Assembly: GCF_003234655.2 (NCBI RefSeq)
Contig: NZ_CP126271.1
Location: 2,356,001 to 2,420,000, forward strand
Reading direction: 5' to 3'
Source of the DNA: Curtobacterium sp. MCLR17_007
GTDB lineage: Bacteria > Actinomycetota > Actinomycetes > Actinomycetales > Microbacteriaceae
DNA length: 64,000 nucleotides
Positions 24,511-27,378 of the stretch are shown in pieces. Every line of letters begins with the position of its first letter. Within the stretch, counting starts at the first letter, position 1. The notes under the pieces are model-generated. The model searched no databases. It was not told where the DNA came from and saw only the letters and a list, made by a program, of their open reading frames with translations. A program made the translations under genes and the position numbers.

Positions 24511-25143
24511 TCAGTCGTCGGTGTCGACCGTGTTCGTCACGACGTCACCGGAACCGGCGTCGATCCGGATGCTGTGCTTGGTGCCCGCGGAATCGCGGAC
24601 GTCGCCCTCCCACACCACGGTGCCGGTGTGGTCGTCGAGCCCGAGCTCGGTGACGGTGCCAGCGACGGTGTCGGTGAGCCGACCCGCGGCGTCCTCGACG
24701 TCGAGCTCCGCGGCGGCGACGAACCGACGGTGCTCAGCGTCGTCGTCGGCGTCGGTGTCGTCAGCGCGCGGTGTCCCCTCGGCACGGGTGCCGGCCGCGT
24801 CGGTGTGGACCTCGTGCTCCGCCCCGTCGTCCGTCACGACGAGGACCTCCCACGCCGAACCGTTGCGCTCCTGCTCGACCGAGATCACGGTGCCGGACCC
24901 GACGGCCTTGCGGGCGGTGGCACCGGCGGCGACGAGCGCCTCGTTCGAGTCGGACGCGGTCCGGGCGCCAGCACCGGTGGACGGCCCGGTCCGCGCGGAC
25001 GAGTCGCTCCCGGATGACGAACCGACACCGGCGGTGTCCGTGTCGTCGGAGTCGGCGCAGCCGGTGACGGCGAGGGCTCCGGCGAGCAGGACTGCTGCGG
25101 AGAGGGCGATGCGGCGGGTACGGGGCATGTCGGTGATGGTCAT
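24511..25143 (-). CDS. Secreted lipoprotein with PepSY-like C-terminal domain
   Basis: 210 aa. The signal peptide RIALSAAVLLAGALAVTGC ends in a lipobox (AVTGC, Cys about residue 29), so it should be lipid-anchored outside the membrane. A low-complexity Ser/Asp/Gly linker follows, then two repeats of PepSY-like strands (GTVISVEQERNGSAWEVLVVTDDGAEHEVHTDA and GTVTELGLDDHTGTVVWEGDVRDSAGTKHSIRIDAGSGDVV). Such proteins often accompany two-component systems. The ATG at 25143 follows CAGGCT (25150-25155) by 6 nt. Upstream sits a CTGAAG direct repeat that recurs before the response regulator, suggesting control by that system. HK and regulator genes lie directly upstream on the same strand. Confidence 0.85.
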   Translation of the reverse strand: MTITDMPRTRRIALSAAVLLAGALAVTGCADSDDTDTAGVGSSSGSDSSARTGPSTGAGARTASDSNEALVAAGATARKAVGSGTVISVEQERNGSAWEVLVVTDDGAEHEVHTDAAGTRAEGTPRADDTDADDDAEHRRFVAAAELDVEDAAGRLTDTVAGTVTELGLDDHTGTVVWEGDVRDSAGTKHSIRIDAGSGDVVTNTVDTDD

Positions 25144-25166
25144 GCGGTGAGCCTGCCGACCGGGTG

Positions 25167-25183
25167 CTGAAGCAGACCTGAAG
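25167..25183 (-). promoter_or_regulatory. Direct-repeat operator of the lipoprotein promoter
   Basis: CTGAAG at 25167-25172 is repeated at 25178-25183, an 11-bp period (plus-strand orientation; CTTCAG-N5-CTTCAG on the minus strand). It begins 24 nt upstream of the lipoprotein start and lies over the -35 position relative to the -10-like CAGGCT (25150-25155), the place where OmpR/PhoB-type regulators bind. The same arrangement precedes the response regulator gene. Confidence 0.7.
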
Positions 25184-25268
25184 CGAGCTGGCCGGACGGT
25201 GGACGCCGAGGGCCCGACTCTGCACGGCTCCGGTGCCGAGTGCGTCCGGCGCCGCCTGCACCCGGAGG

Positions 25269-26606
25269 TCAGTCGCTGCGCGGGAGCCGGACGACGAACC
25301 GTGCGCCGCCGCCAGGGGCGTCCTCGACGCGCACGCTCCCGCCGTGCGCCCGGACCGCGTCCCGCACGATCGCGAGCCCGAGTCCCGATCCGCCCTCGTC
25401 GCGGCTGCGGGCCTCGTCCAGCCGGACGAACCGGTCGAAGACCCGCTCGCGCTCCGCCGGCGCGATCCCGCTCCCGTCGTCGTCGACGACGACCTCGGCT
25501 GTGTCGCCCACGGTGCGCACCCCGACGGCGACCCGACCATCCGCGTGCCGGACGGCGTTGTCCACGAGGTTCCGGACCACCCGTCCGAGCAGCCGCTCGT
25601 CGCCGAGGACCCGCGCGGGTCCGATCCCCGAACCGTCCACCGCGACGAGACCCGCCGACCGCACGCGCGCGACCTCCGCCAGGGCGAGGTCGTCGAGGTC
25701 CACCGGGCGTCCCTCCACTGCTCGGCGCTCGTCGAGCCGCGAGAGCTCGAGCAGCCCGTCGACGAGCGCGGCGAGACGGTCGTTCTCAGCCGACACGACG
25801 TCGGCGAGCTCGACGAGGTCGACGCGGTCGGGGTGCGCCCTGGCGACTGCGGCGTGCTGCCGGACCGAGGCGATCGGGGAGCGCAGCTCGTGCGATGCGT
25901 CCGACACGAAGCGCCGCTGCGCCGCCGCCGAGCGGTCCAGCCGCTCGAGCATGTCGTTCATCGTGGCGGCCAGCCGGGCGACCTCGTCCTCCGTCCCCGG
26001 AACGGCGACCCTGGCTCCGCGGGACGCTCCCCCGACTTCCGCGACCTGCCGCCGGATCCGCTCGACGGGGCGGAGTGAGCGCCCCACGACGACCCAGGTG
26101 CCGACACCCATGAGCAGGACGAGGACGGGCACCCCGACGCCGAGCAGCGTCACCACGGTGGTGGTCGCCGTGTCGGCCGCGTCGAGCGAGGCACCGAAGA
26201 CGACGGTCGCCTCGGTGCCGTCCGGCAGGTCGACGTCGTCGGCGACGAGCAACCACCGGTCGCCGTCGTCCGACCACCGCGACTCGTCGGCCGTCGGCAG
26301 CGCGGGCGGGTCGGCGTCGTCCCCGTGCGCCAGGACGCGGCCGCCACGGCCAACGACCTGCACCAGGACCTCGTCGTAGCCGTCGACGGCACGCGCGCCG
26401 TCAGCCTCGACCCGGGCCGTGGCCTGCTCGAGACCGCTCTCGGCGGTGCTCCGGACGCCGTCGAGCAGCACCAGGCGGAGCACGGTGACGAACACCACGG
26501 AGCCCACGACCAGCGCCGCCAGCACCAGCAGCACCGCCGCGAGAGTGGTCCTGGCGCGGACGCTCCGCGGCCACGACGGCGCAGCGCGCTGCGCACCCTC
26601 AGGCAT
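25269..26606 (-). CDS. Two-component sensor histidine kinase
   Basis: 445 aa, orthodox membrane kinase. Two membrane segments (about 20-46 and 150-174) flank an extracytoplasmic domain of about 100 residues; a HAMP region follows (RSLRPVERIRRQVAEV to about 225), then HisKA with the phospho-acceptor His239 in VSDASHELRSPIAS and HATPase_c with RNLVDNAVRHADG (N box), DDDGSGI (G1) and GGSGLGLAIV (G2). The start at 26606 overlaps the response-regulator stop by 8 nt, so the genes are coupled. The signal is unknown. The lipoprotein downstream may modulate it outside the membrane. Confidence 0.94.
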   Translation of the reverse strand: MPEGAQRAAPSWPRSVRARTTLAAVLLVLAALVVGSVVFVTVLRLVLLDGVRSTAESGLEQATARVEADGARAVDGYDEVLVQVVGRGGRVLAHGDDADPPALPTADESRWSDDGDRWLLVADDVDLPDGTEATVVFGASLDAADTATTTVVTLLGVGVPVLVLLMGVGTWVVVGRSLRPVERIRRQVAEVGGASRGARVAVPGTEDEVARLAATMNDMLERLDRSAAAQRRFVSDASHELRSPIASVRQHAAVARAHPDRVDLVELADVVSAENDRLAALVDGLLELSRLDERRAVEGRPVDLDDLALAEVARVRSAGLVAVDGSGIGPARVLGDERLLGRVVRNLVDNAVRHADGRVAVGVRTVGDTAEVVVDDDGSGIAPAERERVFDRFVRLDEARSRDEGGSGLGLAIVRDAVRAHGGSVRVEDAPGGGARFVVRLPRSD

Positions 26607-27276
26607 CGGCCACTGCCAACCGGTACCCGGCGCCGCGCACCGTCTCGATCGTGGCCCGCCCGAACGGCCGGTCGACCTTGCGGCGCAGGTGCCCGACGTA
26701 CACCTCGACGATGTTCGGGTCCCCGTCGAAGTCGACGTCCCACACGTTGTCGATCACCTGCCGCTTCGAACAGACCTGCCCGGCTCGTCGCACCAAGAAC
26801 TCGAGGACCGCGAACTCCCGGCTGGTCAGGTCGAGCGCGACGTCACCGCGGTGAACGGTCCGGGCAGCGGGGTCCAGCACGAGGTCGCCGACGGTCAGGA
26901 CGCTCGGACGCTCCCGCGCGCCGCGCCGCACCAGGGCACGGAGCCGTGCGACGAGCACCGGGTGGGAGAACGGCTTGGTGACGTAGTCGTCGGCCCCGGC
27001 GTCGAGTGCCTCGACCTGGTCCCACTCCCCGTCCTTGGCGGTGAGCATGAGCACCGGGGTCCAGTCCTGGTCGGCGCGGAGCTGCGCGCAGACAGCCCAT
27101 CCGCTGAGCCCCGGCATCATCAGGTCGAGGACGATCGCGTCGTAGTCGAACTCCCGCGCGTGCCACAGCCCGTCGACGCCGTCGTGTGCCACGTCCACGG
27201 CCCAGCCCTCGGCCTCGAGACCCCGTCGGACGCCGTCCGCCAGCCGGACCTCGTCATCGACCACCAGGACACGCAT
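26599..27276 (-). CDS. OmpR-family response regulator
   Basis: 225 aa. The receiver domain has the acidic pair D7-D8, phospho-acceptor D51 (VLDLMMPGLSG) and the conserved Lys in YVTKPFSHPVL; the C-terminal winged helix contains LTSREFAVLEFLVRRAGQV and the recognition segment NIVEVYVGHLRRKVDRPFGR. The ATG at 27276 gives the family start MRVLVVDDE and lies 7 nt after CAGACT (27284-27289), so a 17-residue upstream extension is unlikely. The direct repeat at 27300-27316 over its -35 region suggests that it regulates its own promoter. Confidence 0.95.
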   Translation of the reverse strand: MRVLVVDDEVRLADGVRRGLEAEGWAVDVAHDGVDGLWHAREFDYDAIVLDLMMPGLSGWAVCAQLRADQDWTPVLMLTAKDGEWDQVEALDAGADDYVTKPFSHPVLVARLRALVRRGARERPSVLTVGDLVLDPAARTVHRGDVALDLTSREFAVLEFLVRRAGQVCSKRQVIDNVWDVDFDGDPNIVEVYVGHLRRKVDRPFGRATIETVRGAGYRLAVADA

Positions 27277-27299
27277 GGAGGGCAGTCTGTCGTGCGGCG

Positions 27300-27316
27300 C
27301 TGAAGCGCCGCTGAAG
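27300..27316 (-). promoter_or_regulatory. Direct-repeat operator of the two-component system promoter
   Basis: CTGAAG at 27300-27305 is repeated at 27311-27316 with an 11-bp period, identical in unit, spacing and distance from the start codon (24 nt) to the site before the PepSY lipoprotein. The spacing of one helical turn is that of OmpR/PhoB-type half-sites. With the -10-like CAGACT (27284-27289), it replaces a normal -35 element. Confidence 0.72.
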
Positions 27317-27334: not shown

Positions 27335-27378
27335 CGGACGGGAGGCCCGTGGCGGCGCCGCCACGGGCCTCCCGTCCG
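27335..27378. terminator. Perfect 44-bp palindrome, terminator of the SCO4848-like gene
   Basis: Perfect inverted repeat centred at 27356/27357 with arms reading CGGACGGGAGGCCCGTGGCG plus two bases. It lies 24 nt beyond the stop of the small membrane protein gene and upstream of the response-regulator promoter. It is the GTGGCG variant of the hairpin family seen at 20348-20391 and elsewhere. Confidence 0.83.

Follow-up and report, generated by a model that had tools for sequence, protein, structure and literature searches.

The genome of a Curtobacterium (Microbacteriaceae) carries a two-component system next to a gene for a PepSY lipoprotein, and the same direct repeat precedes both the response regulator (RR) gene and the lipoprotein gene. 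The question raised by this locus is whether these repeats are the operators of the adjacent RR, in such a way that the system would activate its own genes together with a surface protein acting back on the kinase, as had been proposed in a preliminary description of the sequence. The repeats were followed in the 64-kb stretch of DNA analysed (the window), in the whole genome, in the genus and in other organisms.

The Two-Component System and Its Lipoprotein

The features of the locus, in window positions, are the following:

26599..27276, minus strand: OmpR/PhoB-family RR, 225 aa, ATG at 27276, receiver and Trans_reg_C domains
25269..26606, minus strand: sensor histidine kinase (HK), HAMP, HisKA and HATPase_c domains (Pfam)
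24511..25143, minus strand: PepSY lipoprotein, 210 aa, ATG at 25143, lipobox-like VTGC ending at C29
27300..27316, minus strand: operator A, CTTCAG-CGGCG-CTTCAG, 5' of the RR gene
27284..27289, minus strand: -10-like hexamer CAGACT, 10 nt past operator A and 7 nt from the RR ATG
25167..25183, minus strand: operator B, CTTCAG-GTCTG-CTTCAG, 5' of the PepSY lipoprotein gene
25150..25155, minus strand: -10-like hexamer CAGGCT, 11 nt past operator B and 6 nt from the lipoprotein ATG

The regulator belongs to the OmpR/PhoB family, as a Pfam profile search detected a receiver (PF00072, E 1e-27) and a Trans_reg_C winged helix (PF00486, E 2.4e-24), and residues D51, T79 and K101 were read from its sequence, D51 being the phospho-acceptor aspartate. 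Two closer assignments were rejected. As a PmrA (BasR) orthologue, the protein reached 160.9 bits with the PmrA model, for a cut-off of 330, and the half-site is CTTCAG, not CTTAA; as a member of the CzcR/SilR/CopR heavy-metal subfamily, it reached 232.2 bits with TIGR01387, for a cut-off of 279.2. The start of the kinase gene overlaps the RR stop, and the kinase is 99% identical to that of the Curtobacterium sp. Leaf183 locus.

The lipoprotein gene adjoins the kinase gene, and its product matches PF03413 at 3.2e-08. Its structure model shows two predicted PepSY-type domains (about 63-128 and 132-207), which resemble 4exr, YpmB and UipA. Lipobox residues G28 and C29 are invariant among 34 aligned lipoproteins; a lipobox count of 50/50 was set aside, because the lipoproteins in it had been chosen by a lipobox-like motif. 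Upstream of the RR promoter, positions 27337-27376 of the window form an inverted repeat without mismatches, the two arms of 20 bases adjoining each other, which may be the terminator of the small membrane-protein gene located before it.

Operators in the Window and in the Genome

Operators A and B are read on the minus strand, as are the RR and lipoprotein genes. Both 17-mers were recovered with zero mismatches where the preliminary description had placed them, and the distances that it gave proved correct, with 24 nt between the repeat and the start codon of either gene, and CAGRCT standing 10 nt (RR) or 11 nt (lipoprotein) after the repeat, then 7 or 6 nt before the ATG. Each is a direct repeat with a period of about 11 bp over the -35 region, as in sites of the OmpR/PhoB type. 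The window by itself is weak evidence, because CTTCAG-N5-CTTCAG with up to two mismatches was found four times in its 64 kb for 1.62 expected, a number reached in 9 of 100 shuffles.

Throughout the 3.8-Mb genome, the exact CTTCAG-N5-CTTCAG occurs three times, compared with once for the reversed control. The half-site is better described as GCTTCAG, since, among the 50 systems of the genus considered below, the upstream half-site is preceded by a G in 45/50 (RR) and 49/50 (lipoprotein) cases, and the downstream half-site always (50/50 at either gene). A genome search with GCTTCAG-N4-GCTTCAG, allowing up to two mismatches, gave 17 matches (64 for the control), and the three with 0-1 mismatch are the sole ones among them to be followed, after 10 or 11 nt, by NANNNT. 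These three elements are operators A and B plus a third site:

G000:C1:1850078-1850094 (L001:1501-1517), outside the window: site C, full operator-hexamer element

Site C is flanked on one side by a second RR/HK pair (with regulator RR2) and on the other by a divergently encoded membrane protein with a high content of Pro, Gly and Ala, for which a profile search gave no match to a PepSY domain. RR2 and the reported RR (hereafter RR1, of system 1) are 45% identical. Assignment of site C to system 1 was rejected, as the site is kept in 11 genomes lacking this system. A random frequency over the genome, which would have spoken against an operator, was not seen, with 3 of the 17 matches being full elements and 126 of the 128 copies in the genus lying at two loci. 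The idea of a chance pair was likewise discarded, since the 0-1-mismatch sites alone have the hexamer and the copies track two-component genes.

Conservation in the Genus Curtobacterium

The genus of the window's assembly was sampled with 66 genomes. The kinase was matched in 51 of them, and 50 orthologous systems were used, G013 being dropped for having a kinase match with neither lipoprotein nor site beside it. Lipoprotein site B is exact in 50/50 systems, and RR site A is exact in 36 and has one changed base in 14. The 100 sites were picked without requiring the hexamer, and NANNNT was found at 10-11 nt in all of them, with a spacing of 11 in 50/50 lipoprotein promoters, and of 10 in 46 and 11 in 4 RR promoters. 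The mean information of the 12 core bases is 1.92 bits (A) and 2.00 bits (B), compared with 0.33 and 0.79 at bases -40 to -11. Orthologous promoters retain the repeat both in the genus (n = 50 systems) and, for the most part, at the 35 RR loci of other genera (see below).

Two further observations concern the surroundings of the half-sites. In the 50 lipoprotein orthologues, positions -7, -6 and -5 upstream of operator B are C, A and G in 49, 49 and 50 cases, respectively, often as part of GAACAG or ACCAG, and may represent a third, weak half-site. Before the RR gene, a tandem expansion in 11-bp steps was detected in two genomes, with four CTTCAG half-sites in L133 (G046) and three in L131 (G054).

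Altogether, 128 exact copies were counted in the 66 genomes (21 for the reversed control), overlapping tandem copies being counted separately (three in G046, two in G054), and no genome has more than four. System 1 accounts for 89 copies, 37 are beside RR2 and 2 are elsewhere. One of these stray copies, in G015, has no hexamer; the other, in G024 (L235:2007-2023), is a full element with hexamer, 22 nt before a lipoprotein-like gene without Pfam match, a possible extra target in one species. RR2 was matched in 38 genomes, and site C is exact in 37 of them and has one mismatch in G020. Taking as absence the lack of a match at E 1e-80 (kinase) or 1e-60 (RR2), system 1 occurs without RR2 in 23 genomes, RR2 without system 1 in 11, both in 27 and neither in 5. 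These five genomes have zero exact copies, two of them being 88% and 73% complete.

Operators in Other Genera and Other Organisms

In a family draw of 150 genomes, the RR was matched at threshold in 39, spanning 27 of 85 genera. From the 40 matches outside Curtobacterium, 35 were examined (left out: three in G280, one in G347 and one in G300; least similar). Requiring the hexamer and allowing up to two mismatches, the element was found 5' of the RR gene in 25 of the 35 loci and 5' of the gene that follows the kinase in 22, the control giving 0, with 17 exact in each group; it is lacking on the RR side in 10/35, downstream in 13/35 and on both sides in 6. The spacing in such scans is not independent evidence because the hexamer was a criterion, and the 35 loci were rescanned without it. 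With up to one mismatch, the rescan gave 23 sites on the RR side, where the control had 0, and 22 on the downstream side, where it had 2. The RR sites have NANNNT at a spacing of 11 in 21 cases and of 10 in one, for a background of 0.021 per position, and the downstream sites have it at 11 in 21 cases.

Outside the genus, the distance from the operator to the RR start codon goes from 23 nt (9 of 25 sites) up to 127 nt, so that the repeat keeps a constant distance to the hexamer and not to the start codon. The position compatible with a leaderless start, with the start codon at 23 nt, is limited to those 9 of the 25 RR sites. As for the proteins behind the downstream operators of other genera, 12 of the 18 scanned match PepSY, 7 above the curated cut-off and 5 below it, and in the remaining 6 the scan gave no PepSY match; this set excludes L271, L290 and L297, and the L237 protein is covered by the scan of L188, which stayed below the cut-off.

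The element was also searched, with the hexamer required, at further loci from other organisms. Where the RR is at least 50% identical, it was found in 9 of 22 loci, 3 before the RR and 6 in divergent position (control 0), and where the RR is less similar (n = 36) it was found in one. Eight proteins behind such sites, selected by eye as PepSY-like, gave 7 PepSY matches, 6 of them above cut-off. A class-wide scan with the bare 17-mer was noisy, with matches in 46 of 148 genomes and 68 hits compared with 44 for reversed controls. Inspection of 29 of these loci showed the hexamer at 10 or 11 nt in 7, by eye before secreted, membrane or RR genes, and most of the others look like chance.

Proposed Circuit and Alternative Explanations

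We propose, with a probability of roughly 0.84, that A and B are sites of their own RR, which would activate the RR-HK operon and the lipoprotein, and that the latter would tune the kinase. OmpR/PhoB-type regulators activate from head-to-tail repeats of 11 bp placed immediately upstream of a -10-like hexamer, and the preliminary reading in these terms stands, as the repeats found 10-11 nt above such a hexamer fit activators of that family. The phosphorylated RR would bind head-to-tail over the -35 region of both promoters, raising, by positive autoregulation, the expression of the RR-HK operon and activating, from the second copy of the operator, the surface lipoprotein with two PepSY domains. 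In Curtobacterium both transcripts probably start at or beside the start codon, as leaderless messengers. The lipoprotein would most likely touch the extracellular domain of the kinase, a metal or a signal of envelope stress possibly being involved, and would tune its activity, probably as a negative feedback. This contact and its effect are suggested as most likely by the likeness to DbfQ-DbfS (cited part of PMC12714742) and by the neighbourhood of UipRS-UipA (cited part of PMC8963506). The autoregulated circuit first put forward is well supported by the sequence, but its operator is not private, being common to the paralogous RR2, at whose own locus it is also found in the 11 genomes without the reported system.

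Having this second locus in mind, the two systems could be cross-wired, with RR2 also binding A and B, and RR1 also binding site C. In favour of this, site C is exact in all but one of the RR2-bearing genomes, it has NANNNT at a spacing of 10 in 16/16 cases checked (16 of 37), and the recognition region DPN[IL]VEV...LRRK is common to both regulators. However, their DNA-binding domains are 48% identical, scarcely above the identities to other regulators of the genome (up to 46%), and the stretch DPNVVE, similar to the one they have in common, is found in a third regulator (L178). Besides, system 1 alone (23 genomes) and RR2 alone (11 genomes) each retain their own sites, so neither system needs the other. 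Cross-wiring is for us a tentative possibility with the odds somewhat against it, and the presence of the same operator at the RR2 locus means that sequence alone cannot assign the regulator where both coexist (27/66 genomes). It is, in turn, very improbable that the adjacent RR has no part in A and B and that these are sites of RR2, or of some other regulator, alone; RR2 does have the same element at its own locus, but at least one exact A/B site is present in all 50 system-1 genomes, 23 of them without RR2 match.

The position of the sites also allows a repressor to be considered, since they overlap the expected position of the -35 hexamer, and an RR covering this region could silence both promoters. 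Activators that substitute for the -35 contact need a fixed spacing to the -10 hexamer, and the constant 10-11 nt found here suits activators of this kind and makes repression unlikely; BqsR, with a TTAAG operator of 11-bp period and the last pentamer overlapping the -35, activates, according to the cited part of PMC4682146. The fixed hexamer spacing would also agree with a sigma-factor promoter of which the CTTCAG repeats were a component, instead of sites for a regulator, but this is scarcely credible when two half-sites 11 bp apart are conserved, three or four appear in tandem in G054 and G046, respectively, and the copies track two-component genes.

Starting from RR1 as the activator at A and B, a more ambitious picture can be drawn, which we consider possible and somewhat less probable than its opposite. 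The loop would be near-closed, the conserved strong regulon consisting only of its own operon and the PepSY partner, with the lipoprotein as the main output, capturing a surface ligand (perhaps iron or another metal) and reporting to the kinase, and the paralogous system would employ this operator word to control another surface protein, in such a way that two kinases would speak one DNA code. Given the low copy number (up to four per genome, 126/128 at two loci), the strong regulon would be predictable from sequence.

Comparison with Known Systems

PepSY-two-component modules are a kind of system already known, and for the CTTCAG-N5-CTTCAG operator we found no earlier description in the open-access literature. 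With this operator, a class of PepSY-partnered sensor systems in actinobacteria would have a concrete DNA code, and the sharing of the operator among them makes the control of UipA-type proteins by UipRS-type systems testable.

The comparisons that follow refer to the cited parts of the respective papers. Judging from sequence and by analogy, the nearest named module would be UipRS-UipA, and the mode of action would be like those of DbfQRS and BqsRS-BqsP. In Microbacterium, UipRS lies upstream of a tandem-PepSY surface protein, UipA (PMC8963506), and in the system described here two-component genes are also upstream of a surface protein with two predicted PepSY domains. The protein behind the downstream operator in G345 (L282), whose RR is 73% identical, matches UipA chain 7ath at E 4.9e-8, which links the family of the reported systems to the UipRS-UipA module; four other proteins compared with UipA gave no match or E 0.079.

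In DbfQRS from Vibrio cholerae, the PepSY protein is encoded next to the RR and HK, the operon is positively autoregulated, and DbfQ binds the sensor domain of the DbfS kinase outside the membrane and biases it to phosphatase action (PMC12714742). The Curtobacterium locus falls within the vicinity defined for such modules, a PepSY protein within four genes of the HK/RR (PMC12714742), its gene being adjacent. This DbfQ logic, applied here, would give a positive loop with a PepSY brake or co-sensor. There are two differences, as co-transcription with dbfRS is predicted for dbfQ (PMC12714742), whereas the PepSY gene here is preceded by a separate promoter with another copy of the operator, and DbfQ-DbfS binding was measured, whereas the contact here is proposed by analogy.

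Regarding the operator, the PmrA/BasR box CTTAAG-N5-XTTAAT is a hexamer direct repeat with a 5-bp spacer, bound head-to-tail (PMC3973317), and has the same repeat layout, with CTTAAG in the place of the CTTCAG found here. In Pseudomonas aeruginosa, the PepSY proteins BqsP and BqsQ have been proposed to regulate BqsRS (PMC4282423), and BqsR is an activating RR that acts at bqsP through the direct repeat TTAAG-N6-TTAAG over the -35 region (PMC4682146). The repeat described here can be read as TTCAG-N6-TTCAG, with the same 11-bp period and a difference of one base per half-site. The genome of BqsR has 432 operators with up to two mutations (PMC4682146), whereas the longer word of the Curtobacterium system, when up to two mismatches are allowed, is matched 17 times, and the hexamer accompanies 3 of these matches.
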